DNA of 53,260 nt from Saprospiraceae bacterium (GTDB lineage: Bacteria; Bacteroidota; Bacteroidia; Chitinophagales; Saprospiraceae), in the NCBI GenBank assembly GCA_020848995.1, contig JADLHA010000004.1, forward strand, positions 1-53,260. Direction: 5' to 3'. The notes beneath the pieces are model-generated. The model worked only from the letters and a program-made list of their open reading frames with translations. It searched no databases and was not told the DNA's origin. This document shows positions 8,735 to 49,337 of the stretch, in pieces. Within the stretch, counting starts at the first letter, position 1; each line of letters starts with the position of its first letter. Made by a program: the position numbers and the translations under genes.

Positions 8735-9045
8735 AGGGCACTTCTAATAACCCCCTATTGCGCCAGCCAGCCCGCACAGGCTCACGCGCTCAATGAATTT
8801 AGCTTCACAATCCTTCGTTGCAGATCAGTCAGTGATCGTTCCAAATAGCTTTCTTCGCTGCGCCTCGTCTTGTTTGGCTAAATTCATTCTGGCATCAACA
8901 GGGACATGGAGGGAGGCAGCCCTTTTCATTCTGGCATCAACAGGGAGTGCAGGGAGGCAGCCCTTTTCATTCTGGCATCAACAGGGAGTGCAGGGAGGCA
9001 GCCCTTTTCATTCTGGCATCAACAGGGAGTTTTTAGAAGTGCCCT
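8735..9045 (+). repeat. 311-bp MITE-like repeat element with 12-bp terminal inverted repeats
   Basis: The left end AGGGCACTTCTA (8735-8746) and right end TAGAAGTGCCCT (9034-9045) are perfect inverted copies. The left half (8735-8880) is repeated in inverse orientation at 1-152. The right half is filled by a 41-bp tandem repeat. No conserved reading frame is present, so it is non-autonomous if mobile. The gene-free stretch 8652-9112 consists of this element, 83 bases after lolA and the GH3 promoter. Confidence 0.75.
8883..9029 (+). repeat. 41-bp tandem repeat (about 3.6 copies)
   Basis: Copies start TTCATTCTGGCATCAACAGG at 8883, 8925, 8966 and 9007, giving periods of 42, 41 and 41 bases; the last copy is partial. 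Copies 2 and 3 are identical over the unit. The array lies inside the 311-bp repeat element, so copy number may vary between strains. Confidence 0.9.
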
Positions 9046-9112: not shown

Positions 9113-10615
9113 ATGTCCTTCCGGAAAAAGTTAATACACCGCGTCGCGCGAACACTTACCCACATCCAGCAGCGGGATTACCAGCGCGCGCCGCAATGTC
9201 AAAGCCGCATTTTCCGGCAATTCATCGCCAAGGGAATGGCGACCCGGTTCGGGAGAGAACACGATTTTGCAGGCATTCGCCATTACAGCGACTTTGCGGA
9301 TCGGGTACCCGTGCGGGATTACGAAGATCTAAAGCCCTGGATTGACGAGATTCGCAAAGGCGCAAAAGACGTACTTTGGCCTGGGCAGCCACGGTATTTC
9401 TGCAAAACCTCAGGAACCACTTCTGGAGCCAAATACATCCCCATCACCCTGGAGAGCATGGGCAACCAGATCCGGTCTGCGAGGACAGCTCTATTTCATT
9501 ACATCAGCAGAACTCCGGATACCGATGTGTTTGGCGGTAAGATGTTTTTTCTTTCGGGGAGTCCACGACTGGATCAGGAAGGCATCATTCCGGTTGGAAG
9601 GTTGTCCGGGATTGTAAACCACGAAATTCCATCCTGGTTCCAGTCGAATAAGCTACCGGATTATGCCTTAAATTGCATTGAACCCTGGGAAGCCAAAATC
9701 GATGCACTGACCGATTTCGTTTTGGGGCAGGATATCCGGGTGATCAGTGGCATTCCGCCCTGGGTGCAGATGTTTTGCGAGCAACTGCTGCTCAAGACCG
9801 GAAAAGACAACTTGAGTCAACTGTTTCCCAGACTAGAATTGTACGTCCACGGTGGCGTCAACTACACCCCATACGGCGGCCGGCTGCGCAGCCTCTTTGG
9901 CAAAGACATAGCCTTGTTGGAGACTTATCCGGCCAGCGAAGGCTTTATTGCCTTCCAGGACGACGAAGGCGACCCTGGGCTTCAGCTCGTTGTTAACGAC
10001 GGCATCTTTTATGAATTCATTCCCAAATCGGAGGTCCACCTGCCCAATCCCAAGAGGCTCCAGTTGACCGGCGTGTCGACCGGCGTTGACTATGCGGTAG
10101 TGCTCACGACCAACGCCGGACTTTGGTCATACCTGATCGGCGATCTGGTGCGATTTACTTCTCTGAATCCCTACAAAATAGTGGTGAGCGGTCGCATCAG
10201 CCAGTTCATTTCTGCGTTCGGGGAGCACGTCATCGGTTCAGAGATCGACCAGGCCATCCGTTACGCCCAACAAGCCCACCAATTTGATTTTGTTGAATTT
10301 ACCGTAGCCCCTCAAGTCAGCCCGTCGGACAACAAGCACCCCTACCACGAATGGTACATCGAGTTTGCGGAGATTCCCAGGAACCTGCACGAAATCGCAC
10401 TGACCATCAACAGCCGGTTGTGCGAGCTCAACAGTTATTACAAAGACCTCATCGACGGGAACCTGCTCGACACCCTGCGCATTCGCCCCGTGAGGAAGAA
10501 TGCCTTTTTGAATTACATGAGACGGGTTGGGAGGCTGGGCGAACAGTTCAAAGTACACCGCCTGAGTAACGACCGGCACGTTGCCGACGCACTGGCCAAC
10601 GATATCCTGCCCTAA
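9113..10615 (+). CDS. GH3 auxin-responsive promoter family protein (acyl-adenylating enzyme)
   Basis: Members of this family adenylate carboxylic acids and, in plants, conjugate them to amino acids; bacterial substrates are not established. The 500-residue protein has the phosphate loop TSGTTSGAKYIPIT (99-112), a central YxASEG-like adenylation motif (TYPASEGFIAF), and a later GDLVRF motif followed by a small C-terminal lid. Length matches bacterial members. It stands alone after the repeat element and has its own promoter. No neighbour suggests a substrate. Confidence 0.9.
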   Translation: MSFRKKLIHRVARTLTHIQQRDYQRAPQCQSRIFRQFIAKGMATRFGREHDFAGIRHYSDFADRVPVRDYEDLKPWIDEIRKGAKDVLWPGQPRYFCKTSGTTSGAKYIPITLESMGNQIRSARTALFHYISRTPDTDVFGGKMFFLSGSPRLDQEGIIPVGRLSGIVNHEIPSWFQSNKLPDYALNCIEPWEAKIDALTDFVLGQDIRVISGIPPWVQMFCEQLLLKTGKDNLSQLFPRLELYVHGGVNYTPYGGRLRSLFGKDIALLETYPASEGFIAFQDDEGDPGLQLVVNDGIFYEFIPKSEVHLPNPKRLQLTGVSTGVDYAVVLTTNAGLWSYLIGDLVRFTSLNPYKIVVSGRISQFISAFGEHVIGSEIDQAIRYAQQAHQFDFVEFTVAPQVSPSDNKHPYHEWYIEFAEIPRNLHEIALTINSRLCELNSYYKDLIDGNLLDTLRIRPVRKNAFLNYMRRVGRLGEQFKVHRLSNDRHVADALANDILP

Positions 10616-14141: not shown

Positions 14142-14726
14142 ATGAAGAAGAGGAACATTGCCATATTCGCCTCCGGTAACGGTACCAATGCCCTCAGGCT
14201 CATCGAGTACTTCAAAAACCATCGCGAGGTTGCTGTGGGGCTCGTAGTCAGCAATTCCAATAAAGCGGGGGTGATCCACATTGCCCGCCAGCACAACGTT
14301 CCCGTATCCATCATCAATAAAACCCTGCTGGCAAACAATGGCTTCATGACCTCGCTGCTGAAACTCTACGACATCGATTTCATCGTGCTTGCTGGGTTCC
14401 TGCTGCTCGTGCCCCCTTTCCTGATCAAGGCATTCGACAGAAAGATGATCAACATCCACCCTGCCCTGCTGCCGCGGCACGGTGGCAAAGGCATGTTTGG
14501 ACTTGCTGTCCATCAACAGGTAATCGACGAGGGGGATCCCGAAACGGGCATCACCATCCATTACGTCAACGAGGTGTACGACCAGGGTAAGGTCGTTTTT
14601 CAGGCACGGTGTGCGGTCGAAAAGAAAGAAAGCCCAGAAAAATTGCAAAAGAAAGTCCAGGAACTGGAGCACAAACACCTTCCGGAGTGGACGGAAAAGC
14701 TCGTACTCCAAACGCGATTTCTCTGA
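14142..14726 (+). CDS. purN: Phosphoribosylglycinamide formyltransferase
   Basis: PurN transfers a formyl group from 10-formyl-THF to GAR in purine synthesis. The 194-residue product has the phosphate loop SGNGTN (11-16) and the catalytic residues Asn104 and His106 in NIHPALLPRHGG and Asp147. ATG 14142 is 16 bases after the DUF4835 stop; the frame is open further upstream but would overlap that gene. It complements purH at 2718; the two are in separate transcription units. Confidence 0.93.
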   Translation: MKKRNIAIFASGNGTNALRLIEYFKNHREVAVGLVVSNSNKAGVIHIARQHNVPVSIINKTLLANNGFMTSLLKLYDIDFIVLAGFLLLVPPFLIKAFDRKMINIHPALLPRHGGKGMFGLAVHQQVIDEGDPETGITIHYVNEVYDQGKVVFQARCAVEKKESPEKLQKKVQELEHKHLPEWTEKLVLQTRFL

Positions 14727-14802
14727 TCGGACCAATGGCATTGGCGGTTCTGCACCCTACCACCGCCATTTTATTTACCTTAGTGTTTCTTTATTTGCAC
14801 AC

Positions 14803-17800
14803 ATGGGTAGATTTCTCCTTGTTTTGTACATCACCGCATGGCTTCCCCTTTCCGGTCAGGGCCAGGGCTGTGCCGGTCTAAACGCAGATGCAGGACCCGA
14901 CCAGTTCAGTTGCGATCCCACCAACCCACCGCAGCTGCAGGGGAGTTATTCCGGAACGCCAGACAAATATTACTGGACGCCTGGCAACTACCTCAGCGAC
15001 CCGAATGCGACGGATCCGACGGTGAACGCCCCCGCTGGAAAATACACCTTCACGTTTACTGTGGAGGCCATGTCGTCGATCAATCTGATCAGCAACGGCA
15101 ACTTTGAAGCAGGCAATTCCGGATTTACCCATGAATACAGCTACGGCTTTCCCGGTGGAACGTTTGGTCCGGGCTGGCTCAGCGTGGGAACCAATCCACT
15201 TGGATACAACGGCTCCTGGGCTCCCTGTGGCGACCACACGAGTGGCAGTGGCAACCAGCTCATCGTCGACGGCCACACATCCGCCAATGCAAAAGTCTGG
15301 TGTCAGACGGTATCCGTTTCACCGGGTAAAACCTACCTGGTTCGCTTCTATGTGCAAAGTGTGTTTCCCGCCGCGCCTTGCCAACTCAATGTGCTTGCCA
15401 ACAACGTTTCCTTCGGCACGGTCCAGGGAGGTGCCCTGTGTGACTGGCAGAGTTTTGAAGAATGTTTTAAAGCCACTTCCGCAAGCGTAGAGATCTGCAT
15501 CCGCGAAACTTCGGGGATAGGATATGGCAACGACTTCGCCATCGACGACATCGAAATGTACGAAAAGTGTATGGATACCGACGAGGTTGTGGTTGAGGTG
15601 GTCGATCTAAAGGCACAGGCCGCCATCCCCCAGCCCCCCCGCTGCGCATCGGACGTATTTGACCTCAACGCACTCGGATCATCGACAGGTCCTAACATCC
15701 GCTACGAATGGCGTTCCGACGGAGGGACCATCGTTTCTTCATCAGGGCTTACGGCCAAAGGCAAAGGGCGCGGAACGTATTACGTCAAAGTAATCTATCA
15801 GAACGGCAACGTCTATTGCGAGAAAGAAGCTGAGGTACAAGCTGATCCCTCCGATGATCTCGAAGGGCTTCTCGAAGTCGAAGGCATAGCCAATTGCAAC
15901 TCCGACACCATCGAGTTGCGAGGGAGTGTGATCAACGGAAGTGGAGATTACACCTACCATTGGATTCCAGCCAACAAAATCCACCGGGGTCTGAACGAAC
16001 CAACCGCCTACGTCACCGAGGCGGGACTTTACAAACTCGTCGTCATCGATAAGCAGTCGGGTTGCGAGATCCAGCTCCAGGAAGTGGTTGCCTCCGATAC
16101 GACCAAGCCCAAAGTAGAAATTTCCGCCGACAGCCTGATTAGCTGTAAAAACCCGTTAGCTACCCTTGCCAGTACCCCCTTTGACACGAGCCGGTATCTG
16201 TACGAGTGGACCCTTCCTGACCTCACGCTCATTCGCAATGCCGATACGCTTCATGCCGCAGACACCGGGCTTTACCTGTTGCGTGCTACCGACAAATTCA
16301 ATAAATGCTATACGGAAACATCGCATGTGCTGCGCGCGGATACCACAATGCCCCTGGTGGCCCTGGGACCTGATGGCATCATTGATTGCCGCAACGAGGA
16401 ATTCCTGGTCCACGCACAAGACACGGGCACTGCCGGCACATCCCGGTATGTCTGGCTGCTTCCCACCGGACCATTGCCCCCTGATTCTGTCCTTGTGGAT
16501 CAGCGCGTCTCTCAGGGAGGATGGGTTGTGCTTACCGCCATCAACAATACGAACGGTTGTTCGCACACGGACAGTCTGTTCGTCGCAGATGTACGAAAAT
16601 TACCAGCCGCAATTGCAGGAAAAACCGACACACTCAACTGCTCAAAAACCCAACTTCAGCTCGACGGCAGCGCCAGCACCTCTGATTCGACAAAACTTGG
16701 GTGGTTTACGTACACGGGTAACATTATCGGTGATACCACTACGGCCTTCCCCAACATCGACAAGCCAGGTTGGTATTTTCTCCGGGTAACCGACACCACA
16801 AACCAATGCCGGCAAATCGATTCGGTTTTTATCCATCAGGATACCACCAGACCTTCGGCTGTGCTCGATGCAGAAACTACGTTCCGCTGCTCCGATACCC
16901 TGCGCTGGCTCGATGGAAGCGCGTCTTCATCCGGTGCATCGATCCGGTATTTGTGGCTCACCTCCGATGGAAGCATTGCATCCGGTCAAGGAACGCCAAA
17001 CATTTCCGTGAAGGGTCCGGGTCGTTACTTCCTCATTGTGGACAATCTGACGAACGGGTGTTCGGACACTGCAGAGATGCTCGTCAAGCCCGATCTGGGG
17101 GCTCCCACAGCACAGATAGATGTTCCGGATACCATTACCTGCAGCCTTCGCTCTGTTCAATTGAATGCAACCACTTCTTCACCGACCGGGAACCCGGTGC
17201 GCTTTGAATGGAAAGCAGACAGCGGGCAAGCGATCCAAAATGACCACACGCTCAGTCCCCAGGTAGATCGCGGCGGGTATTACACCCTTATCGTTACGGA
17301 TACGGTCAATGGGTGCAGCACGACCGTGCAGGTATTGGTGAGCGTGGATACCCTGTCTCCTTTGGCCGATGCGGGCGCAGACGCCATCTGGAACTGCGCA
17401 AGCCGTGTACTCCTGCTCGATGGCGCAAATTCCCAGGGTACACATGCGCTCAATTATACCTGGAGTACTTCTGACGGACGATTTTCAGGAAGGACCGATC
17501 AGCCACAAGCGAACGTCACGTCACCGGGAAGCTACCTGCTTACCGTGCGGGATGTGCGGACGGGATGCTACGCCATTGACAGCATCGCCGTCATCGCCGA
17601 TACCATCTACCCGGTTGTACGCATCGCCCTTCCCGACACCTTAAACTGTAAAGTGACTTCGCTTGTACTTGACGGTTCCGCATCCGGTTCCGGAACGCGG
17701 ATTCGCTATGAGTGGACGAGCAGCAACGGCCAGCTTTCCGGCAACACCATGCTTCCGGTCGCCACGGCCATTCGCGGAGGTACTTATTCCCTGTTGATGG

Positions 17801-19140
17801 TGGATACCATTAATTTTTGCCGCGATTCTGCATCGGTGCTCGTTGTTGAAGACTTGCGTGCTCCCTTGTTCAGCATCGCGGGTACCACCACCCTGAACTG
17901 TTCCGGAAATCCCGTCGAACTTTCCGCCGGCCTCAACTCCGCAAGAGGAGGAGAGTCCTTCACATGGTCCACACGCCTCGGATTGATCTCAGGCCGAACC
18001 GACAGTACAGGGATCCTGGGCGTTCGCAGGGGCTGGTACATGGTAACGGTGCTGGATCCGCACAATGGGTGCACTTCAACCGATTCCATATTTGTCGATC
18101 AGATCAATGATCTCGGAGTCGAATTGGTGGGAGGGGCAAACCTCACCTGCCTGGTCCACAAAATTGCCCTTTCAGGAATGGTACTCAGAGGCAGTGGTGC
18201 TGAGCTGCTCACCTGGACAACCCGCGGCGGGAATATTATAGCAAATGCTGCGACCGCGCAGATCGAAGCAGACCGTCCGGGGTGGTATTATTTCAGCGCG
18301 CAACAAGCAGGTAACGGTTGCGAGGCAATTGACTCCATTGAGATTTTAGAAAACACGAACGTTCCGGCAAGTTTGCATGCCAGACTGCACCAAGCCAATT
18401 GCCCCGGCGACCTTTGGGTACTTGAGATTGACAGCATAACAGGGGGAGAAGCGCCGCTGCGCTATGTCTGGAATGGCAAGGATTTTCAGGGAAGCCGCCT
18501 TTCAGGCGGGAATTTCGGCAGTCAGCACATCGAGGTGTTCGATCGAAACGGATGCTCCCTGTCTGTGACCTATACAACCATCGAACCGGTGGGGATCGAC
18601 GTTCAATTGATGCCGCTGGCCCGGATCGACCAGGGAAGTTCGCTTCCCCTGGACCCCGTGTACTCTCTGCCACCGGATTCAATCGCCAGCGTGTCCTGGA
18701 GCCCTGGCCGGTTCCTAAGTTGTTCGGATTGCCTCCAGCCCGTTGCTGAACGGGTCTCCGAAGACATCGAATATTTCTGCACCGTGGTTTCCAAAAAGGG
18801 GTGCTCTGCCACGGCACGCATCCGCATCGAGGTGATTCTACGCGAGGTCTGGGTTCCCAATGCATTCAGTCCTAACGGCGACCAGATCAACGACCGTTTC
18901 TTTCCCGTAATCTCCCCTGACGCCTTCCGCGAAATCCGCAATTTTAGGATCTTCGACCGCTGGGGTAACCTCCAATACGAACAGAAATTGCTGTCTCCCG
19001 GTCAGGTATACGATCTGGCCTGGGACGGCACGAGCAACGGAGAAAAACTCAATCCGGGAGTTTACCTGTATGCAATGGAACTCATATGGAACAATGGAGA
19101 CCGCCAACTGTTATCGGGAGATATAAGTCTGATCCGGTGA
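14803..19140 (+). CDS. Giant secreted repeat protein with T9SS type B (gliding-motility-associated) C-terminal domain
   Basis: A 1445-residue secreted protein. The start at 14803 gives a signal peptide (MGRFLLVLYITAWLPLSGQG). An Ig-like segment follows, then a jelly-roll/lectin-like domain (about 92-250, beginning near ISNGNFEAG). About ten repeats of 80 residues come next (about 360-1170), each with a Cys near its start (xxCxxxxxxLDGSxS) and an NGC or similar Cys near its end, Ig/PKD-like and probably disulfide-linked. The last 100 residues (VPNAFSPNGDQINDRF ... GVYLYAMEL) are the type B sorting domain. It is likely a surface adhesin. The next gene overlaps by 4 bases. Confidence 0.88.
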   Translation: MGRFLLVLYITAWLPLSGQGQGCAGLNADAGPDQFSCDPTNPPQLQGSYSGTPDKYYWTPGNYLSDPNATDPTVNAPAGKYTFTFTVEAMSSINLISNGNFEAGNSGFTHEYSYGFPGGTFGPGWLSVGTNPLGYNGSWAPCGDHTSGSGNQLIVDGHTSANAKVWCQTVSVSPGKTYLVRFYVQSVFPAAPCQLNVLANNVSFGTVQGGALCDWQSFEECFKATSASVEICIRETSGIGYGNDFAIDDIEMYEKCMDTDEVVVEVVDLKAQAAIPQPPRCASDVFDLNALGSSTGPNIRYEWRSDGGTIVSSSGLTAKGKGRGTYYVKVIYQNGNVYCEKEAEVQADPSDDLEGLLEVEGIANCNSDTIELRGSVINGSGDYTYHWIPANKIHRGLNEPTAYVTEAGLYKLVVIDKQSGCEIQLQEVVASDTTKPKVEISADSLISCKNPLATLASTPFDTSRYLYEWTLPDLTLIRNADTLHAADTGLYLLRATDKFNKCYTETSHVLRADTTMPLVALGPDGIIDCRNEEFLVHAQDTGTAGTSRYVWLLPTGPLPPDSVLVDQRVSQGGWVVLTAINNTNGCSHTDSLFVADVRKLPAAIAGKTDTLNCSKTQLQLDGSASTSDSTKLGWFTYTGNIIGDTTTAFPNIDKPGWYFLRVTDTTNQCRQIDSVFIHQDTTRPSAVLDAETTFRCSDTLRWLDGSASSSGASIRYLWLTSDGSIASGQGTPNISVKGPGRYFLIVDNLTNGCSDTAEMLVKPDLGAPTAQIDVPDTITCSLRSVQLNATTSSPTGNPVRFEWKADSGQAIQNDHTLSPQVDRGGYYTLIVTDTVNGCSTTVQVLVSVDTLSPLADAGADAIWNCASRVLLLDGANSQGTHALNYTWSTSDGRFSGRTDQPQANVTSPGSYLLTVRDVRTGCYAIDSIAVIADTIYPVVRIALPDTLNCKVTSLVLDGSASGSGTRIRYEWTSSNGQLSGNTMLPVATAIRGGTYSLLMVDTINFCRDSASVLVVEDLRAPLFSIAGTTTLNCSGNPVELSAGLNSARGGESFTWSTRLGLISGRTDSTGILGVRRGWYMVTVLDPHNGCTSTDSIFVDQINDLGVELVGGANLTCLVHKIALSGMVLRGSGAELLTWTTRGGNIIANAATAQIEADRPGWYYFSAQQAGNGCEAIDSIEILENTNVPASLHARLHQANCPGDLWVLEIDSITGGEAPLRYVWNGKDFQGSRLSGGNFGSQHIEVFDRNGCSLSVTYTTIEPVGIDVQLMPLARIDQGSSLPLDPVYSLPPDSIASVSWSPGRFLSCSDCLQPVAERVSEDIEYFCTVVSKKGCSATARIRIEVILREVWVPNAFSPNGDQINDRFFPVISPDAFREIRNFRIFDRWGNLQYEQKLLSPGQVYDLAWDGTSNGEKLNPGVYLYAMELIWNNGDRQLLSGDISLIR

Positions 19141-39599: not shown

Positions 39600-40223
39600 T
39601 CAGGCGTGGCCGGTCAACAAGCCAAAAAGACCCGTAAACACCATGGTTAAACCCGTGATCATTCCGGCGTAGTGCTCCAGACGGTGGGTGTCGAATTGCT
39701 GGATGCCCTTGAGCGCCAGATAGACCCAAACGACCATTCCGGCAATGCTGATCAATGCATAACAGGCCACACACAAAACGAGAAGCGACGGGCCTATCAT
39801 CCCGGCATTGATGAAATAGGCCTCTATTTCCAGACAGGGCGCCAAAAACATATAGGCCAGCAGCGCATAGGCAATCTGCTTTTTCGTACGCGTTTGCTCC
39901 AGTATTTGTGCGTCGATGTGAAAGTGATGGTGCGTGTGGTGACGGTACAGGAAATATAGTCCTGCGCCGATGAGCAAAATGGGGCCGACCCACTCCAGGA
40001 GGAACTGGTACTGGTTGCTGATCCGGTGGAACACCCAGCCTAAAAGCAATCCCAAAAGGATCGTGCTCAGCACATGCGACAGCGCCAGGTAAAAGCTCAG
40101 GCGCATCGTCTCCCGCTGCGTCCAATTCTGCAAACGGGCCAGGGTTACCAGCGGAAGCCAGTGACTGGGGATGAGTGCGTGCAATAAGCTGATGATGATG
40201 GTGCCGGCTATGACCTCGTTCAT
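39600..40223 (-). CDS. Six-TM integral membrane protein with His-rich loop, NicO-like
   Basis: A 207-residue protein with about six membrane helices. Helix 1 contains HALIPSHWLP, close to the HAxxPDH motif of nickel/cobalt exporters and UreH/TauE-like proteins, but with Ser in place of Asp. A cytoplasmic loop around residues 92-101 is His-rich (RHHTHHHFH). Metal transport is therefore plausible but not shown. ATG 40223 opens at the first helix; an in-frame ATG at 40268 would add 15 residues. It is 72 bases downstream of a universal stress protein gene on the same strand. Confidence 0.65.
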   Translation of the reverse strand: MNEVIAGTIIISLLHALIPSHWLPLVTLARLQNWTQRETMRLSFYLALSHVLSTILLGLLLGWVFHRISNQYQFLLEWVGPILLIGAGLYFLYRHHTHHHFHIDAQILEQTRTKKQIAYALLAYMFLAPCLEIEAYFINAGMIGPSLLVLCVACYALISIAGMVVWVYLALKGIQQFDTHRLEHYAGMITGLTMVFTGLFGLLTGHA

Positions 40224-40295
40224 GTCGGCCAAATATCCGAAAAGATTCTTGCCCTTCGCGAAATTCACTTATAAAAACCTCGATTCCCCAGTGCC

Positions 40296-41132
40296 TCAGG
40301 CCTCATACAAAATCAATACCGGATGGGAAAGGTGCTTTACGAGCGGAAGGGTGTGCCCGCGAAAGAAAAGGTAATAGAGAAAGTTGCGCTGATGGGGCAA
40401 CAGGATGAGGAGTCTGGCACCGGAACTCCGCACATAGGTCTCGACGGATTGTTCAAATGCTCCGGAACAAATGTATTTGCGCTTCGTTTTGAGTCCACCA
40501 AACAGCAGATCTACCAAAGCAGCGTGTTTCTCCTCCTCAATTTCCTGCTTGCCCTCGTGCACATGTACAAATTCCAGGAGCCCCTTTCGAAGAAAATTGT
40601 ACTGCCGGAAAAGGTGCATGGAAACCCGGTTCAGTTTCAGATGGAAATCGGTTGCAAAACAAATGCGGTCATTGAAGCCGGCGAATCCAAAACCCGGCGG
40701 AATGAGCATCATGGGAATGTTGGATTGCGCAAGCACTTGTTGGCTAGTGCTACCGAGCAGTATTTTGGAAATGTTGCCACTTCCCCGGCTCCCCATAATG
40801 ATGAGCTGTGAACCGATTGCAGCGGCCTGTTGAATGATGATCTGGGCGGGGGCACCGCTGTCACAAAGCACTTGCAGCGACCTTTTTCGAATCCCGTGGT
40901 CCGCCATAAAGCGGTGCACGTATTCACCCAAAGCCTGTTTCTTCTCGGCCAGGTAAACGCCAAAGTCGTACACCGGACCGAAACGCTGCAGTCCACCCTC
41001 ATAGGGTGAGACCACATGGAGGATGATGACTTCCGCCCGCTCCCGCACTGAGAGTTGCAAGCCAAAACGCAACGCATCTTCCGCAGCCGGCGAAAAATCA
41101 ATGGGGATGAGCATCCGCTTGTCATTCTCCAT
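40296..41132 (-). CDS. Tandem-domain universal stress protein
   Basis: A 278-residue protein with two UspA folds. Domain 1 (about 4-150) starts RMLIPIDFSPAAEDAL and carries the ATP-binding GSRGSG-x9-GS motif near 115; domain 2 (about 155-278) is diverged and ends HPVLILYEA without the glycine motif. ATG 41132 is preferred to 41141. It is divergent from the second tandem USP at 41293, and a FixK/FNR-like palindrome sits between them. Likely role: ATP-binding stress protein for low-oxygen or growth arrest. Confidence 0.88.
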   Translation of the reverse strand: MENDKRMLIPIDFSPAAEDALRFGLQLSVRERAEVIILHVVSPYEGGLQRFGPVYDFGVYLAEKKQALGEYVHRFMADHGIRKRSLQVLCDSGAPAQIIIQQAAAIGSQLIIMGSRGSGNISKILLGSTSQQVLAQSNIPMMLIPPGFGFAGFNDRICFATDFHLKLNRVSMHLFRQYNFLRKGLLEFVHVHEGKQEIEEEKHAALVDLLFGGLKTKRKYICSGAFEQSVETYVRSSGARLLILLPHQRNFLYYLFFRGHTLPLVKHLSHPVLILYEA

Positions 41133-41158
41133 AGTCAACAACTCTTGAACCTTGCCCC

Positions 41159-41202
41159 TAAAGATAAAGATTGATGACGAATTGCTCCTTGATGAATGTC
41201 AA
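41159..41202 (-). promoter_or_regulatory. FixK/FNR-type box with promoter for the minus-strand USP gene
   Basis: The palindrome TTGA-TGAATG-TCAA (41189-41202) fits the FixK/FNR consensus TTGA-N6-TCAA exactly. On the minus strand TATCTTTA (41166-41159) resembles the -7 element with one mismatch. Centre-to-centre distance is 33 bases, which puts the box near -41 as in class II activation. The same 33-base distance is seen upstream of the CBS gene. Confidence 0.55.
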
Positions 41203-41245
41203 TGCTGCCATTGAGCAAAATCATGCCATTTTCGCCTACATTGGT

Positions 41246-41253
41246 TAACTTTG
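41246..41253 (+). promoter_or_regulatory. Promoter -7 element TAACTTTG
   Basis: Exact TAnnTTTG match 39 bases before the ATG at 41293. The FixK-like box at 41189-41202 would be centred near -63 relative to this promoter, a class I position. Confidence 0.5.
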
Positions 41254-41292
41254 TTTGAACTGCCACTCAAAAAGTACCGTTACTTACATAAT

Positions 41293-42138
41293 ATGCCCCC
41301 AGTAAAGAGGATTTTAGTTCCCGTCGATTTATCGGAAATGGCTCAGTGCCTCGTCCGGTATGCGGTCGGCATGGCCCGGGGCCTGGGGGCGGAATTGCAC
41401 TTTCTGCATGTCTACCAGGCGCCGGTGGTTTCTGCAGATGCCTTTGTATACGTACCCGACTCAGACACCCTGGAACACATGAGAAAAAACCATGTGGGCA
41501 GGTTGAGAAACCTCGTTCAATCCGAATGTACGGCACAGCAGGCAACCCTCGCCTTTACCATTGACGGGGTGTACGGGGTTGCAGCAGATGAGATCATCGC
41601 CACCGCCACGCGTTTGTCCTGTGACCTCATCCTCATGGGGCTTCAAGGTGCCGGGTACCTGCGCGAAAGACTGCTGGGCAACACGGCAACTCACCTCTTT
41701 CTGCACGCTCCCTTACCCGTTTTGGCCATTCATCCGGACATGGAATTTGCGCCATTTCGCAATGCTGTTTTTGCTTATGACCAGCGTGCGTTCCAAAACA
41801 AAGCCCTATTGTCGCCGCTTAGGGCACTGACAGATTTTTTTGAAACCAAACTCCATGTACTCAGCATTGTCGGTGAGTTGCGAGACTTCCCCATGCTTGC
41901 AGACAGTCTCAGAGCCAATGCATTGGATCCAGATTTTCCGCAGGACTCCACATCCTACCACATACTCCAAAACGAAGATGCGGTAGAGGGGCTGAGGGAG
42001 TATTGTGAGCACAACGCCATTGACCTTGTAACGCTCGTTGCAAGAAAGCACAGCTGGCTTTCCAATTTGCTATCCGAGCGGGTTAGTAAAAAAACGGCCT
42101 TCCGTCTGGAGGTGCCCGTATTGGCCCTGCACGATTAA
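41293..42138 (+). CDS. Tandem-domain universal stress protein
   Basis: A 281-residue protein with two UspA-like domains. Domain 1 starts VKRILVPVDLSEMAQ and has a nucleotide-loop variant GLQGAGYLRERLLGNTA near 115-131. Domain 2 ends LEVPVLALHD. ATG 41293 matches the usual USP start; the frame opens at 41251 but that is within the promoter. The orphan gene at 42157 follows after 18 bases and probably shares the transcript, which ends at the terminator at 42589. Confidence 0.85.
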   Translation: MPPVKRILVPVDLSEMAQCLVRYAVGMARGLGAELHFLHVYQAPVVSADAFVYVPDSDTLEHMRKNHVGRLRNLVQSECTAQQATLAFTIDGVYGVAADEIIATATRLSCDLILMGLQGAGYLRERLLGNTATHLFLHAPLPVLAIHPDMEFAPFRNAVFAYDQRAFQNKALLSPLRALTDFFETKLHVLSIVGELRDFPMLADSLRANALDPDFPQDSTSYHILQNEDAVEGLREYCEHNAIDLVTLVARKHSWLSNLLSERVSKKTAFRLEVPVLALHD

Positions 42139-42156: not shown

Positions 42157-42567
42157 ATGCACCTTAAAATCGACGATGAACAGACCATTGAACAGGTTCA
42201 AAAGAAATTCAGTTCTAGGTATCCCTTTTTGAAAATTGAATTTTTTTCAAAACCTCACGACCTTCATTCCGGATCGCGCCGGGAAGACATGATGCCCGCT
42301 GAAATGCATTTTAGTGAGTGTCGTTCAAAGCACAGCGGGGGCAGTCTCGAAATCCGTCCCAGCACAACCGTCGCAGAACTCGAGAAAAGTTTCAAAGAGG
42401 CCTTCGGGCTTTATGCACAGGTTTTTCGAAAATCCGGCGATTTGTGGATTGAAACAACGGTTACAGACGACTGGACGCTTGAAAAGCAAAATTCTGAAGC
42501 TGAGCTTTTCTACAACGATCTTCAGGCCAAAGGTGGCAGCTACGACCGCGACGCCATCCTGAGTTGA
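42157..42567 (+). CDS. Hypothetical protein in stress operon (136 aa)
   Basis: A soluble 136-residue protein with no signal peptide or membrane helix. It begins MHLKIDDEQTIEQVQKKFS and has a second half with the regular pattern LEIRPSTTVAELEKSFKEAFGLYAQVFRKSGDLWIETT, suggesting a small alpha-beta fold. I do not recognise the family. It is 18 bases after a USP gene and directly before a strong terminator, so it is very likely expressed with the stress genes. Confidence 0.75.
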   Translation: MHLKIDDEQTIEQVQKKFSSRYPFLKIEFFSKPHDLHSGSRREDMMPAEMHFSECRSKHSGGSLEIRPSTTVAELEKSFKEAFGLYAQVFRKSGDLWIETTVTDDWTLEKQNSEAELFYNDLQAKGGSYDRDAILS

Positions 42568-42705: not shown

Positions 42706-43143
42706 TTACGACACTGGAATCTCTTTGGCTTTTCCCGTAGAATTCTGGTCGATTTTGGGAATGTGAATGCTGAGAATGCCCTTGTCGTAGGATGCGCCGA
42801 TATGAGCGGCATCAACATTGGATGGAAGGGTAAAACTGCGCGAAAAGGAAGTGTAGTTGTATTCGCGCCGCTTGATCTTGCCCTGCTCCTCTTCTTTGAT
42901 TTCGCTTTTGCGCTCTGCAGATACCGTCATGAGGCGGTCGTCAACCGAGATCTTGAAGTCGGATTTCTCCATTCCCGGAGCGGCCATTTCAATCGTATAG
43001 TGTTTTAACGATTCCCGCACATTCACTGCGGGAACGGTGGACTCGGAAGCGCGAAATCCATCATCTCCCAAAAAGTCATCCAACCAAATCGGAAGGTTCC
43101 CAAGAAAGGGAAATTCGCGGTTCAATCTGCTCAAATAACTCAT
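42706..43143 (-). CDS. Hsp20 / alpha-crystallin family small heat-shock protein
   Basis: An ATP-independent chaperone that holds unfolded proteins. The 145-residue product has a short N-terminal arm (1-40), the alpha-crystallin domain (about 41-132: VRESLKHYTIEMAAPGMEKSDF, YTSFSRSFTLP, A-S-YDKGILSIHIPK) and a short tail with PKID and the motif KEIPVS. The 30-base gap to the upstream USP gene contains a palindrome but no obvious terminator, so both may be in one transcript. Confidence 0.93.
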   Translation of the reverse strand: MSYLSRLNREFPFLGNLPIWLDDFLGDDGFRASESTVPAVNVRESLKHYTIEMAAPGMEKSDFKISVDDRLMTVSAERKSEIKEEEQGKIKRREYNYTSFSRSFTLPSNVDAAHIGASYDKGILSIHIPKIDQNSTGKAKEIPVS

Positions 43144-43173: not shown

Positions 43174-43629
43174 TTATTTTACGATCAGTACCGGACAATT
43201 GGCATTTCTCAAAACGCCTTCCGCCACACTCCCCAAAAATACCCGGCGAATGCCCTTGCGCCCATGCGACCCGATGACGATCAGGTCTGCACCCGTCCGC
43301 TCCTGCACTGCAATCACCGCTTCACCGATGTCATTGTCCTCTTCAACGACAATGTCAACCGGGACCTGGGGGTGGCTTTTCGCAACCCTTGCCTTCAGTT
43401 CATCCAGATTCTTTTGCTCATCTTCGCGCATCTTGCCCAAAAGGTCGATGGCCAGGACATTATTCCGCAACAATGGACTCCCGCCTTCATACAGAAAGGG
43501 ATTGACCAATACGTGCACTACCGTCAATTTGTCGCCGCAGGCTGCACAGAGCTGCAAGGCGCGATCCAATGCCCGGTCAGCGTGCTCGGAAAAGTCATAC
43601 GAACACAGAATGTTATTGAATACTTTCAT
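43174..43629 (-). CDS. Single-domain universal stress protein
   Basis: A 151-residue UspA protein of normal length. It starts KVFNNILCSYDFSEHADRAL, and the C-terminal ATP-binding motif GSHGRKGIRRVFLGSVAE fits G-x2-G-x9-GS. It ends NCPVLIV. It is upstream of Hsp20 on the same strand; a GTGA-N6-TCAC palindrome lies 23 bases before its start. Confidence 0.92.
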   Translation of the reverse strand: MKVFNNILCSYDFSEHADRALDRALQLCAACGDKLTVVHVLVNPFLYEGGSPLLRNNVLAIDLLGKMREDEQKNLDELKARVAKSHPQVPVDIVVEEDNDIGEAVIAVQERTGADLIVIGSHGRKGIRRVFLGSVAEGVLRNANCPVLIVK

Positions 43630-43723: not shown

Positions 43724-44137
43724 TCACTTGCCGATATAGCGAAGAATGTCAAATGGCGTAACCAATCCAAGCAACTCCTTGCCTTGTACAACAGGCAGAC
43801 AGTGAAAATAGTTTGTCAAAAAGACCTCAATGGCAATTTCGATGCGATCGTCCGGATCCAGTTTTCCCAATCGCGTCACCATGATCTGTTTGACCTTTGT
43901 AAATTGGAGTTTCTGGTCTTCCTGAATGTCAAGACGTTCGGAATTGAGAACGGCGTTGCTGTATAGTAGCAGATCCGATTTGGAAACCAGCCCAACGAGA
44001 TCGCGAAAATGGACGACGGGAAGGTGATGAAAATTGTGTTGGTCGAAAATGTGCTTGACACTGAGCAGATCGTCTTCAGGAGTCACCGTCACCAGGTCCT
44101 TGGTCATGATTAAACTAACGGGTTGCTTTAGATCCAT
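43724..44137 (-). CDS. CBS-domain protein
   Basis: A 137-residue protein that consists of a pair of CBS domains: SLIMTKDLVTVTPEDDLLSVKHIFDQHNFHHLPVV (about 8-42) and VKQIMVTRLGKLDPDDRIEIAIEVF ... HCLPVVQGKELLGLVTPFDILRYI (about 81-135). Such pairs bind adenine nucleotides and act as energy sensors. It is divergent from the histidine kinase gene, with two FNR-like boxes between them. Confidence 0.92.
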   Translation of the reverse strand: MDLKQPVSLIMTKDLVTVTPEDDLLSVKHIFDQHNFHHLPVVHFRDLVGLVSKSDLLLYSNAVLNSERLDIQEDQKLQFTKVKQIMVTRLGKLDPDDRIEIAIEVFLTNYFHCLPVVQGKELLGLVTPFDILRYIGK

Positions 44138-44152
44138 AAATTGAATTTTTGG

Positions 44153-44218
44153 CTAAGCTAAGCCGTTTTTCGAGCAATTTTACTGATCTTTGTCAGCCAA
44201 AACCCTGATCCTTGTCAA
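44153..44218. promoter_or_regulatory. Tandem FNR/FixK-like boxes between CBS and sensor kinase genes
   Basis: Two near-identical sites, CTGA-TCTTTG-TCAG (44183-44196) and CTGA-TCCTTG-TCAA (44205-44218), have their centres 22 bases apart, two helical turns. For the CBS gene, TAGCTTAG on the minus strand (44160-44153) is a one-mismatch -7 element whose centre is 33 bases from the first box. The second box covers the apparent TTG start of the kinase gene (44212), suggesting direct feedback on its expression. Confidence 0.5.
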
Positions 44219-45534
44219 TTCCGGAGCATCCTGCATTTTTTGACGTTCAGTTCCAGAACAGCAGCTTTTTCAGGTCGATTTTTGAGACGGCCATAGACGG
44301 CATCATCATCATCGACAGCTCGGGGCGCATCCAGATGATCAACGCCAGTGCGGAAGCACTGTTTGGCTACCGCGACGGAGAGCTGATCGGCACAAACGTG
44401 AGCGGGCTGATGCCAGAACCGCATAAACACCAGCACGACGGCTACATCCGGAACTACCTGGCGACCGGAGCCAAGAAGGTCATTGGCATAGGAAGGGAAG
44501 TTCTGGGGCTCCGCAAAGACGGGAGTCTGTTTCCCATACGCCTTGCGGTAAGCAATTTTAACCTCGATGGGCAATCCTTTTTTACGGGGGTAGTTCACGA
44601 CCTCTCGGCGCAAAAAGAGGCCGAACGCAATCTTTGGTACCTCAACAAGAACCTGGAAAAGATGGTCGATTCCAGGACGGGGCAACTCCGGGAAAGCCTC
44701 AATCAGCTCAACGCCATCAACCGCAATCTGGAGTTTGAAATACAGCAACGCGCCATCGCCGAGGATAAACTCAAAGAGCGCGAACAGGAGTTAGTAGATG
44801 CCGTGGAACGGGAACGCAGCCTTCACCTGCTCAAATCGCGTTTCATCTCTGTGGCCTCCCACGAGTTTCGCACCCCTCTGGCCAACATCTTGAGCTCCCT
44901 GAGCCTGATTGACCGCTACTACGCCGACGAACACATCGATAAGCGCAATAAGCACATACAGAAAATTAAAAATAACATACACTACCTCAACGGCATCCTC
45001 AATGAATTCCTGAGCCTTACACGCATCGAGGAAGGCCAGTTCACCTTGAAAGTTGAACCCTTTTCCCTCCGGGAATTCATCCGAGAGCTCGTGGAAGATT
45101 TCAATTACCTCAAAAAGTCTGGCCAGAGTCTGCATTTCGAAGTGGAAGACCCCGAAGGAACCTACCTGATCAGCACCGACAAAACCTGCGTGCGGCACAT
45201 TCTGAGCAATCTCATTTCCAACGCCATCAAGTACAGCGGCGATCAGGCCGACATCCGCGTTCAACTCAGTCTCGCCAACGAACGCTTTGTGATCGACGTC
45301 GTCGACAATGGAATTGGCATCCCGGAAGAGGAACAAAAATTTATCTTCGATATCTTCTACAGGGCCTCCAATGTGCTCAATATCCAGGGCACCGGACTTG
45401 GCCTGAACATCGTTCGAAAATACCTCGACGTCATCTCAGGCACCCTCGTATTCAAATCGCGCGAAAACGAAGGAACCCATTTGCGCATCAAACTTCCAGA
45501 GCATGTTGAAAAAAGCCAAGGTCCTCATCATTGA
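44212..45534 (+). CDS. FixL-like PAS sensor histidine kinase (predicted heme oxygen sensor)
   Basis: A 440-residue soluble kinase without membrane segments. The PAS domain (about 18-135) matches FixL closely: His75 sits where FixL has the proximal heme ligand (BjFixL His200) and Arg95, exactly 20 residues later as in FixL (Arg220), sits in GIGR, followed by RKDGSLFP. A coiled coil (138-205) leads to the H-box with His217 in SHEFRTP, N-box Asn337, DNGIGIP (365-371) and GTGLGL (393-398). The start must be TTG 44212, because a stop lies just upstream and the next Met is inside the PAS domain. It overlaps the regulator gene by 32 bases. Confidence 0.85.
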   Translation: MSIPEHPAFFDVQFQNSSFFRSIFETAIDGIIIIDSSGRIQMINASAEALFGYRDGELIGTNVSGLMPEPHKHQHDGYIRNYLATGAKKVIGIGREVLGLRKDGSLFPIRLAVSNFNLDGQSFFTGVVHDLSAQKEAERNLWYLNKNLEKMVDSRTGQLRESLNQLNAINRNLEFEIQQRAIAEDKLKEREQELVDAVERERSLHLLKSRFISVASHEFRTPLANILSSLSLIDRYYADEHIDKRNKHIQKIKNNIHYLNGILNEFLSLTRIEEGQFTLKVEPFSLREFIRELVEDFNYLKKSGQSLHFEVEDPEGTYLISTDKTCVRHILSNLISNAIKYSGDQADIRVQLSLANERFVIDVVDNGIGIPEEEQKFIFDIFYRASNVLNIQGTGLGLNIVRKYLDVISGTLVFKSRENEGTHLRIKLPEHVEKSQGPHH

Positions 45535-46549
45535 GGACAACGCAGAAATGCGGGAAAACATCCACGAAATTCTCGAATTGTCCAATTACGAAGTGTATGC
45601 CGCGGCAGATGGGCTCCAGGGAGTGCAAGCTGCACGACAGCACCGGCCGGATCTCATTCTATGCGACATCATGATGCCTAACCTCGACGGATTCGGCGTT
45701 TTGAAAATTCTGAGTCAGGACGAACAACTTCGGACGACGCCTTTCATTTTTCTCACGGCAAAAGCCGAGAAAGAGGATTTTCGAAAAGGAATGAACCTGG
45801 GGGCCGAAGACTACCTCGTCAAACCATTCGACGACGCCGACCTCCTTCACATCATAGGCAACAAACTTTCCAAATACGAAGAACTGTCGAAGACCAAAGC
45901 TACCCGCGCTCTTGCCGGCATTCTGCCCTTTGATACGCTCTACACCTTCCCAAAAGTTCAGGCGCTGATCGAGTCATCAGAAGTCAGGGAGTATGGTAAA
46001 AAAAGCAAACTTTGGGTGAGTCGTGAAAAGGTCAACCATTTGTATTTTCTGGAAACGGGCCTCCTGAAAGAAGGAATTGAAACCGTGGGCGGAAAAGAAT
46101 TCATTTTTCAATTTTATTCCGGCCCGGGGCTAGTGGGCGTTCAACACCTCTTCCAGGCAACGTATCACAGTTTTTGCGAGGTCCTAGAACCTTCGGCAGT
46201 TCGCGCCCTGCCGAGAAAACAACTCGAAGACATCATCCTCCGGGAAAATCTCTGGACTTCCTTTCAGCACCATTACGCATCCCTGTGTCAGGAACACCTC
46301 TCCCGGCTTGCCATCAACTCCTTTGGCAACGTGCGCGAGAAAGTAGCTTACCACCTGTATTTGCTGTCGGGCAACCTCAAACAGGATACCCTTCACCTGA
46401 GCCGTGAAGACCTGGCCGCCTTTTGTGGCATTGCCAAAGAAACCCTTATCCGCAACCTGACGGAACTCAAAGAGGACAAAGTCATCCAGGTAGACAACGA
46501 GGGCATCCACATTCTGAATTTACCTAAGCTTCAGACGCTCTTTGTCTGA
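45503..46549 (+). CDS. Response regulator with CRP/FNR-type effector (FixJ-FixK-like fusion)
   Basis: A 348-residue protein. The receiver (1-122) has Glu11, Asp12, the phosphorylation site Asp55, Thr85 and Lys107. A cNMP-binding-like beta-roll follows (about 145-245). It lacks an obvious N-terminal Cys set for an iron-sulfur cluster, so the signal probably comes by phosphorylation. The winged helix is at about 278-340; its recognition helix KETLIRNL keeps Glu313 and Arg317, equivalent to FNR Glu209 and Arg213, which read TGA half-sites. It is coupled to the FixL-like kinase and is the likely binder of the nearby TGA-N6-TCA boxes. Confidence 0.88.
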   Translation: MLKKAKVLIIEDNAEMRENIHEILELSNYEVYAAADGLQGVQAARQHRPDLILCDIMMPNLDGFGVLKILSQDEQLRTTPFIFLTAKAEKEDFRKGMNLGAEDYLVKPFDDADLLHIIGNKLSKYEELSKTKATRALAGILPFDTLYTFPKVQALIESSEVREYGKKSKLWVSREKVNHLYFLETGLLKEGIETVGGKEFIFQFYSGPGLVGVQHLFQATYHSFCEVLEPSAVRALPRKQLEDIILRENLWTSFQHHYASLCQEHLSRLAINSFGNVREKVAYHLYLLSGNLKQDTLHLSREDLAAFCGIAKETLIRNLTELKEDKVIQVDNEGIHILNLPKLQTLFV

Positions 46550-48575: not shown

Positions 48576-49337
48576 TCATGGTTTCCTAGAATTTAACCGG
48601 TCTACAAACCAATTCGCCGGATTATTATGGATATAATCAGATATGGCGTGAAATGAATGATCGTTCCGGATAATGTGTTCATAATAATTGCGTTGCCATA
48701 ATTTTCCATTAAATGGTTCCCAACCAAAATTTTTGACACCCCGGATATATTCATTTGTAGTCATTGTTTTGAACCATTGTACCACACGCTGTAGGGGCGA
48801 ACCTGCGTGTTCGCCCAATAAATTATCGTGTTCACCCAAACCCGTGTGTTCACCCAAACCCGTGTGTTCGTCTAAACCCGCGTGTTCGCCAAAATCCGCG
48901 TGTTCGCCTAAACCCGCGTGTTCGCCAAAACCCGCGTGTTCGCCAAAATCCGCGTGTTCGCCAAAACCCGCGTGTTCGCCAAAATCCGCGTGTTTGCCAA
49001 AATCCGCGTGTTTGCCCGTTGGGGAATCGGGGCAGACACGCAGGTCTGCCCCTACCGGGATGGTACCGGTATTTTCAATAATGCAATGGAAATGGTTGGG
49101 CATCACAATCATTTCATGGCATTGAATGTCCTTAAATTTATTTTCCAATTCGCAATACCATTTTTCAACCATTTCACCTGCGGCGTTCAATATCATTTGA
49201 CCGTTTTCAATATAACCAAATAAACAAACCCTGTTCTGCACGCAAATCGTAATAAAATACAACCCAGGCTGTGAATAATCATAACCGTGTAATCGTATGG
49301 AACGGCGGTGATGTTTCCGGGGATTGTATTTATCCAT
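48576..49337 (-). CDS. REP-associated tyrosine transposase (RAYT / Y1 family) with internal repeat insertion
   Basis: A 253-residue single-strand DNA transposase. The N-terminal half has GLYFITICVQNR and the HUH motif in MPNHFHCII (metal-binding His-x-His). The C-terminal half has VVQWFKTMTTNEY, whose Tyr is the likely nucleophile, then YYEHIIRNDHSFHAISDYIHNNPANW. Between them about 80 residues are encoded by two REP-like hairpins and an 18-bp tandem array (GEHADF/GEHAGF hexapeptides). The frame is intact through the insertion. Without it the protein would be about 175 residues, normal for RAYTs. Confidence 0.88.
   Translation of the reverse strand: MDKYNPRKHHRRSIRLHGYDYSQPGLYFITICVQNRVCLFGYIENGQMILNAAGEMVEKWYCELENKFKDIQCHEMIVMPNHFHCIIENTGTIPVGADLRVCPDSPTGKHADFGKHADFGEHAGFGEHADFGEHAGFGEHAGLGEHADFGEHAGLDEHTGLGEHTGLGEHDNLLGEHAGSPLQRVVQWFKTMTTNEYIRGVKNFGWEPFNGKLWQRNYYEHIIRNDHSFHAISDYIHNNPANWFVDRLNSRKP
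48795..48816 (+). repeat. REP-like hairpin inside the transposase gene (left)
   Basis: GGGCGAAC, loop CTGCGT, GTTCGCCC: a perfect 8-bp stem with a 6-base loop, preceded by GTAG. The same loop and flank occur, inverted, in the right hairpin at 49029-49052. Confidence 0.85.
48827..49006 (+). repeat. 18-bp tandem array, 10 full units
   Basis: Ten contiguous units of consensus CGTGTTCGCCAAAAYCCG run from 48827 to 49006 with a partial eleventh. Each unit is the right arm of the REP-like hairpin (CGTGTTCGCC) plus a short spacer. On the minus strand each encodes one hexapeptide (G-E-H-A-D/G-F/L), so expansion keeps the frame. Confidence 0.92.
49029..49052 (-). repeat. REP-like hairpin inside the transposase gene (right, inverted)
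   Basis: GGGGCAGAC, loop ACGCAG, GTCTGCCCC: a perfect 9-bp stem with a 6-base loop. Read on the minus strand the loop is CTGCGT and the flank GTAG, as in the left hairpin, so the two form an inverted pair around the 18-bp array. Confidence 0.85.

Follow-up and report, generated by a model that had tools for sequence, protein, structure and literature searches.

A FixL-like sensor kinase paired with a receiver-CRP fusion regulator in Bacteroidia, a candidate one-step oxygen switch with a predicted tandem operator

Introduction

Could a single phosphotransfer step carry an oxygen signal from a heme-binding sensor to a CRP-type transcription factor? The question is raised by two overlapping genes at positions 44212–46549 of a 53,260-nucleotide stretch of DNA from a Saprospiraceae bacterium (GenBank assembly GCA_020848995.1, contig JADLHA010000004.1). 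This whole stretch, hereafter the window, is one of the 52 contigs (C4) that make up a genome of 3.14 Mb. The first gene encodes a sensor kinase with a PAS domain, and the second a response regulator in which a receiver is fused to a CRP/FNR-type DNA-binding module. The original prediction, made from the DNA letters and their translations, described the pair as a FixL-type oxygen sensor wired directly to a FixK-like output. The open reading frames (ORFs) and the 32-base overlap of the two genes are as it described them, and the proposed wiring is supported by the match to FixL in sequence and fold, by conservation of the gene pair, and by CRP/FNR-type operators at FixK-type targets.

As far as our literature search reached, oxygen sensing in Bacteroidia is little described, and in the open-access literature we found no description of the receiver-CRP fusion. 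The system analyzed here is a variant of FixL-FixJ-FixK signaling, and the new finding is a predicted operator. We consider it likely that the kinase senses oxygen through heme and that, by way of the fused regulator, the pair directly turns on genes for stress and respiration.

The PAS domain of the kinase is FixL-like in sequence and fold

A search of PDB sequences with the PAS domain of the kinase matched 27 entries, of which the top 13 are all from FixL (seven) or E. coli DosP (six). The FixL matches range from 4e-33 (S. meliloti) to 3.8e-27, with B. japonicum FixL at 1.2e-29. Residues 75, 95 and 217 of the kinase read as histidine, arginine and histidine. Since the three displayed alignments with FixL are gap-free across the histidine and the arginine, His75 and Arg95 occupy the places of the FixL proximal histidine and distal arginine, 20 residues apart and in the FixL register, just as had been proposed from their spacing. 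Both residues are invariant in all 28 rows of an alignment of FixL-type PAS domains, rows that were picked as FixL-like. An AlphaFold2 (AF2) model of the domain, with 28 sequences in its alignment, has a predicted local distance difference test score (pLDDT) of 90. A Foldseek search with this model returned only FixL structures at ranks 1–20, 19 of them at root-mean-square deviations of 0.8–1.4 Å; among the matches listed, these are followed by DosP and then by the heme PAS domain FG214.

The heme pocket can be traced residue by residue. In S. meliloti FixL it includes His194, Ile209, Ile210, Arg214, Leu230 and Val232 (available text of PMC10765370), which align with H75, V90, I91, R95, L111 and V113 of the window kinase. 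The notion that His75 and Arg95 represent a widespread, non-specific PAS motif found no support in this genome, where a search with the PAS domain (E≤0.001) returned only the domain itself.

The start of the kinase is uncertain. An in-frame stop (44206–44208) lies just before the TTG codon at 44212, both are within the predicted operator described below, and no in-frame ATG was found upstream of the PAS domain in the kinase ORF.

The regulator joins a receiver to a CRP-type module

Pfam identifies Response_reg, cNMP_binding and HTH_Crp_2 domains in the regulator. In an alignment of 41 sequences, from the window and from the loci of 40 relatives, the receiver residues D12, D55 and K107 are invariant, as are R301, E313 and R317 in the DNA-binding part. 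A glutamate and an arginine in the recognition helix are the rule for the CRP/FNR superfamily, and the regulator has both, in a Crp-type helix-turn-helix (HTH) that follows a cNMP-fold domain. FNR proper carries a set of four cysteine ligands for an Fe-S cluster in its N-terminal part; the linker that joins the receiver and the CRP domain in the window sequence holds no cysteine, and identity with FNR was discarded. FixJ consists of a receiver and a LuxR-type HTH, and the output domain of DosR is of the NarL/LuxR type; neither identity agrees with an output made of cNMP_binding and HTH_Crp_2.

The arginine of CRP that we take to hold the cyclic AMP (cAMP) phosphate aligns with Ser223 of the window regulator, and this position is acidic in 24 of the 41 sequences (Glu in 19, Asp in 5). 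Because the position is mostly Glu or Asp and the linker is free of cysteine, we read the CRP module as being driven by the receiver alone. Control by cAMP or by an Fe-S cluster was set aside on the alignment and the sequence. Among PDB sequences, the best 60 of 285 matches span the receiver only, or the receiver and the linker. The AF2 model of the regulator has a pLDDT of 86 and a predicted template modeling score (pTM) of 0.57, so that the arrangement of its domains is uncertain.

The pair is widespread in the class and has two kinds of partner kinase

Full-length fusions (E below 1e-50) are found in 38 of 60 genomes of relatives. In a sample of 198 genomes from the phylum (E≤1e-40), the fusion occurs in 32, that is, in 32 of the 49 genomes of the same class or closer and in none of the other 149, for 146 of which kinship was inferred from sort order. 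The system had been put forward as one found in a Bacteroidota; it is indeed present here, but it is not special to this organism.

Conservation of the pair was assessed in 120 loci that were all selected by the regulator alone, 40 from relatives and 80 from named genomes (the best 80 of 585; Dyadobacter, Mucilaginibacter, Pedobacter, Chitinophaga, Flavobacterium and others), two sets that may share genomes. A kinase lies within 600 bp of the regulator in 109 of them, upstream and on the same strand in 106. A histidine at the heme position is retained in 98 of these 109 kinases, of which 49 are FixL-type, 48 have the histidine together with a methionine at +16, and one is of another kind. The PAS domain is FixL-type in the window, but about half of the partner kinases belong to another PAS class and three of the 109 have a PAS domain that lacks the histidine. 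Two kinases (L039 and L047; L and G numbers are our handles for loci and genomes) have two consecutive FixL-type PAS domains, both with the histidine and the arginine. At L204, L221, L225 and L244, where the adjacent kinase has no PAS match, a FixL-type PAS kinase is located 1.7–2.5 kb upstream.

In the second class (L062, L050, L056 and others), the residue at +20 is variable (R 21, M 13, L 6, others). Its MGxGxDL motif was considered as a marker of non-heme kinases, an idea that was dropped when the one member tested matched both FixL (2.6e-15) and the heme PAS FG214 (8.3e-15). The proximal ligand of FG214 is His156, and Met172, at +16, pairs with it in one crystal form (PMC13060918, part of the text). 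As a second-class member matches both FixL and FG214, and its histidine and methionine are placed as in FG214, we suspect that both classes bind heme; the second may be a His/Met heme sensor, for which six-coordinate heme is predicted. It would then offer a natural comparison between His/Arg and His/Met heme sensing into the same regulator.

It is highly improbable, in our judgment, that the PAS domain works without heme, His75 and Arg95 being structural and the kinase sensing another cue. PAS domains bind many ligands, heme is not provable from sequence alone, and the three kinases without the histidine would suit such a reading, but the solved structures nearest to it, in sequence as in fold, are those of the heme proteins FixL and DosP, then the FG214 PAS, and the histidine is retained across both PAS classes.

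A tandem operator is predicted near the fusion

The predicted operator is a pair of palindromes, TGAY-N4-RTCA, placed 22 bp apart. Of 37 relatives' loci, 19 have a TGA-N6-TCA pair close to where the upstream ORF begins, with a distance of 22 bp in 17 of them and of 23 bp in two. In the loci selected by the regulator, there are 49 pairs at 22 bp in the relatives' set (660 kb) and 56 in the named-genome set (912 kb). A spacing of 23 bp was seen five times in each set, and any other spacing up to 60 at most four times. Pairs of the reversed motif number 0 and 2 in all, none of them at 22 bp, a lenient control because reversed single sites are about fourfold rarer than TGA-N6-TCA (110 vs 456 and 155 vs 589). 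The 202 unique tandem sites from all fetched loci favor Y after TGA and R before TCA. A scan of the window for single sites with TGATCNTTGTCA, allowing two mismatches, gave 18 hits where 17 were expected, and only the tandem form stands out.

A scan of the 60 genomes for the exact 22-bp pattern gave 283 matches, and 7 for its reverse, but part of the 283 may reflect chance or coding bias, since a spacing 5 bp longer (N15) gave 93 matches against 8 reversed. The spacing spectrum, from loci that were not selected by sites, is the cleaner evidence for an operator. Of the 38 genomes that have the fusion, 33 carry at least two tandem sites, as do 3 of the 22 that lack it (Fisher 2e-8, a value that overstates independence because the genomes are related). 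By kinase class, a tandem site with a spacer of 10–11 bp is found at 34 of 49 loci with FixL-type kinases, 25 of 48 of the second class and 3 of 12 others. The TGAY-N4-RTCA pairs thus co-occur with the fusion across genomes, and recognition of this DNA by the fusion is predicted.

CRP-family proteins share the TGA half-site, and the tandem sites might belong to a separate CRP/FNR protein, with the fusion merely co-occurring and regulating something else. G053, a genome in which no fusion was detected, carries four tandem sites, one of which has a free CRP-type protein next to it, as such an arrangement would have it. We regard this alternative as quite improbable, given that a tandem pair precedes the kinase-regulator operon in the 19 relatives' loci mentioned above, that three sites precede two receiver-CRP (REC-CRP) genes, and that the number of sites tracks the fusion. 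A search with the CRP half of the window regulator found nothing better than 3.8e-5 in 9 of 10 fusion-free genomes, which is a weak test for distant CRP proteins.

The free CRP-type protein of G053 (C6:231119-231646), which has no detected receiver fusion, adjoins the tandem site at 231681-231714 (L174, L283). It is possibly a split or ancestral form of the regulator.

Predicted targets of the regulator

The 148 distinct sites in the fetched loci are a subset of the total, and for some of these loci a site was the reason for fetching them. For 19 of these sites there is no gene start within 300 bp, and 8 of the 19 are inside an ORF. The 172 flanking genes, whose counts include the window and its sister genome and so are not independent events, comprise among others universal stress protein (USP) genes (21), kinase genes (17), CBS-domain genes (10), cytochrome c genes (7), ccoN (5), P-type ATPase genes (5) and the family of the 136-residue protein of the window (4); REC-CRP genes flank three sites (two genes). 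The ccoN group is backed by a COX1 match in Pfam. Three of the five ATPases have a CcoI-type N-terminus, while the other two were rejected as CcoI-like (L061 is a cation-ATPase, and L132 lacks this N-terminus). Ferritin-like, hemerythrin, Rrf2, Hsp20 and rhodanese families are represented by single cases according to Pfam, and a radical-SAM protein near a site matches Radical_SAM and looks HemN-like by eye. The relatives' target set, with the ccoN cbb3 oxidase, CcoI-like ATPase, cytochrome c, USP, CBS and Hsp20, is predicted to be a FixK-like regulon.

With a simple ORF caller, 102 of the 172 start codons lie 30–90 bp from the site, the USP genes mostly at 48–79 bp and ccoN at 184–222 bp. At many promoters these distances would be consistent with the nearer site of a pair at about -41 and the farther site at about -63. 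Sites next to kinase genes are within 11 bp of the start in 7 of 17 cases (window and sister genome included) and at 38–142 bp in the other 10; given this difference, the feedback in this clade may be negative, and that in others positive.

The genome studied here has five tandem sites. They precede the two USP operons, the CBS and kinase genes, a cytochrome c gene beside moeA, and the genes of another protein like cytochrome c and of a macro-domain protein. Macro-domain proteins are encoded downstream of tandem sites in two genomes (G000, the present one, C6:20890-20923; G004, C29:21773-21806).

Evidence for and against an oxygen signal

Several observations weigh against the oxygen-switch interpretation, as do the limits on the operator counts given above. 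The kinase falls well short of the cut-off of the NCBIfam FixL_Rhizob equivalog, a model built for rhizobial FixL, at 157.6 of 850 bits. Asn81 stands in place of the proximal R200 of S. meliloti FixL (R206 in B. japonicum), a position that is N in 14, R in 12, E in 1 and K in 1 of the 28 FixL-type sequences; together with the pocket register, this means that the oxygen-contact side is retained, whereas one proximal contact is not. Eleven of the 120 loci have no kinase within 600 bp, eight of the 109 partner kinases have no PAS match, and three have a PAS domain without the histidine (L036, L213, L274). One of these, L036, from genome G001 of the same genus as the window, nevertheless has USP genes and a tandem site, which means that a different sensor can serve the module. 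Tandem sites are absent from three of the 38 fusion-bearing genomes, and three genomes without a detected fusion have 4–9 (G035, in 1040 contigs; G008, 66% complete; G053). No ccoN was found above the cut-off in this genome or in its sister (G006), although 10 of 12 tested genomes have one, which leaves the regulon here without its oxidase arm. Finally, the predicted operator covers the kinase start, and the promoter of the kinase is left unexplained by the model.

Some of these points bear on the nature of the signal. The kinase could be a heme-PAS protein that responds to nitric oxide, carbon monoxide or the redox state of the heme, or one that is active when oxygen is bound, like the globin kinase AfGcHK, which is stimulated by oxygen (PMC8697598, available text). 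The heme position settles neither the ligand nor the sign, and the residue replaced by Asn81 is tied to stabilization of the inhibited oxy state (available text of PMC10765370). Moreover, about half of the partner kinases are of the His/Met class, whose one tested member matches FG214, in which either Met172 or His175 is the partner of His156 (PMC13060918, in part). Even so, such a signal seems unlikely to us, as this kinase keeps both Arg95 on the distal side and the hydrophobic cover seen in FixL, and the relatives' targets include the cbb3 oxidase and the CcoI-like ATPase, which are typical of low oxygen.

Proposed mechanism

The computations establish the identity of the domains, the register of the residues, the fold, the conservation of the pair, the geometry of the operator and its tie to the fusion, and where the targets lie. 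The heme, oxygen as the signal, the direction of switching, phosphotransfer, DNA binding and the sign of regulation are parts of a mechanism that we infer as follows. The FixL-type kinase would hold heme b through His75 and sense oxygen, with Arg95 as the distal switch residue. At low oxygen, the deoxy-heme form would autophosphorylate on His217 and pass the phosphate to Asp55 of the receiver-CRP protein, where the phosphorylated receiver would favor the active DNA-binding form of the CRP module, with neither cAMP nor an Fe-S cluster. Two fusion dimers would then sit side by side on the tandem TGAY-N4-RTCA sites, two helical turns apart, and turn on the CBS-USP-Hsp20 operon together with the divergent USP operons of the window, as well as the genes of two cytochromes c and of the macro-domain protein in other parts of the genome. 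At the kinase promoter, feedback would more likely be repression, because the site overlaps the start codon.

Control of a CRP module by phosphorylation, with no apparent ligand, would also show how the CRP fold comes under outside control, and why the operators form exact two-turn pairs. For Bacteroidia, a concrete sensor, regulator, operator and gene list are now offered. In a broader form, heme-PAS kinases of two classes and their receiver-CRP fusions would constitute a main low-oxygen switch of the class, a FixL-FixJ-FixK cascade collapsed to one step, with a phase-locked tandem operator (two dimers, 22 bp) governing the cbb3 oxidase and a DosR- and NmpR-like set of USP, CBS and Hsp20 genes. 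To this wider proposal we give even chances.

Genomic context

Pfam agrees with the original prediction that USP, Hsp20 and CBS genes surround the pair (Table 1). The USP genes at 40296–41141 and 41251–42138 are a divergent pair. Elsewhere in the window, an IS200-like (Y1) transposase ORF (48576–49337) contains an in-frame array of an 18-bp repeat (48827–49016, 10.6 copies) that encodes a repeated GEHA-type peptide. A 41-bp direct repeat (8883–9030; 3.6 copies, 97%) lies just before a GH3-family gene at 9113, and a PKD protein of 1509 residues with a CHU_C type IX secretion signal is encoded at 14611–19140.

Table 1. Features of the kinase-regulator locus and its surroundings (window coordinates).
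Feature	Position	Strand	Basis
Sensor kinase, 440 aa (PAS, linker, HisKA, HATPase_c)	44212..45534	+	ORF, TTG start, Pfam
PAS domain, residues 19-130; FixL is best match by sequence and fold	44266..44601	+	Pfam, PDB search, AF2, Foldseek
His75 codon, FixL proximal heme ligand position (Bj His200 / Sm His194)	44434..44436	+	Alignment
Arg95 codon, FixL distal Arg position (Bj Arg220 / Sm Arg214)	44494..44496	+	Alignment
His217 codon, predicted phospho-accepting His of HisKA	44860..44862	+	Pfam, residue check
Overlap of kinase and regulator genes, 32 bases	45503..45534	+	ORF coordinates
Receiver-CRP fusion response regulator, 348 aa	45503..46549	+	ORF, Pfam, alignment, AF2 model
Asp55 codon, predicted phosphorylation site, invariant 41/41	45665..45667	+	Alignment
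cNMP_binding-fold domain	45986..46243	+	Pfam
HTH_Crp_2; recognition-helix E313 and R317 invariant 41/41	46337..46537	+	Pfam, alignment
Tandem predicted operator: TGATCTTTGTCA, 10 bp, TGATCCTTGTCA	44184..44217	.	CBS-kinase gap; 47 bp from CBS ATG, overlaps kinase TTG
Tandem predicted operator	41190..41223	.	Gap of the divergent USP pair; ATGs 58 and 70 bp away
Two-CBS-domain protein, leads predicted CBS-USP-Hsp20 operon	43724..44137	-	Pfam; operon inferred from spacing
Universal stress protein	43174..43629	-	Pfam
Hsp20 / alpha-crystallin	42706..43143	-	Pfam
136-aa protein, no Pfam or NCBIfam family; relatives in 10/40 fetched loci	42157..42567	+	
Universal stress protein, Pfam match in first half	41251..42138	+	Pfam
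Universal stress protein	40296..41141	-	Pfam
222-aa protein, no Pfam or NCBIfam family; relatives in 3/40 fetched loci (L031-L033)	39600..40268	-	

Comparison with known systems

The closest parallel is the FixL-FixJ-FixK cascade of Bradyrhizobium and Sinorhizobium. Both systems have a FixL-type PAS domain, predicted here to carry heme, on a kinase and a CRP-type output that appears to lack an Fe-S cluster; the predicted half-sites are FNR/FixK-like, and the relatives' predicted targets include the cbb3 oxidase and the CcoI-like ATPase. They differ in that FixJ is a separate response regulator of the REC-LuxR type, whereas here the receiver and the CRP module are one protein, which removes one transcription step. 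In addition, the operators here are tandem pairs 22 bp apart, and many targets are USP, CBS and Hsp20 genes. The only known conserved target of FixJ is given as fixK in the available part of PMC4999443. In the hFixL-FxkR-FixK pathway of Rhizobium, an alternative FixL-type sensor feeds a FixK protein (PMC4999443, PMC7888657, both in part); that pathway, unlike the fusion, keeps a separate response regulator and a separate FixK. A Chitinophaga genome note predicts FixL-FixJ (available text of PMC5646412). The PAS domain of FG214 from Fimbriimonas has its histidine at the same position, and its Met172 matches the +16 methionine of the second PAS class; the part of the source available describes it as a one-component HTH-PAS protein with no kinase, in contrast to the system described here.

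In the DosS/DosT-DosR system of Mycobacterium, a heme kinase controls USPs, an Hsp20 (HspX) and a CBS protein (Hrp1), and the gene set found here resembles the DosR regulon. There, in contrast, the heme is held in a GAF rather than a PAS domain, DosR is of the NarL type, and the DNA motif is a different one. The likeness is stronger to the NmpRSTU system of Myxococcus xanthus, in which CBS-domain, USP, P-type ATPase, cbb3 oxidase, hemN and hemerythrin genes are regulated by NmpR (PMC11841059, available text). Both systems would rely on a heme kinase, predicted in the present case, and govern nearly the same set of genes, but NmpRSTU uses a protoglobin sensor, a multi-component relay and an NtrC-like regulator in place of a FixL-type PAS kinase and a receiver-CRP fusion.

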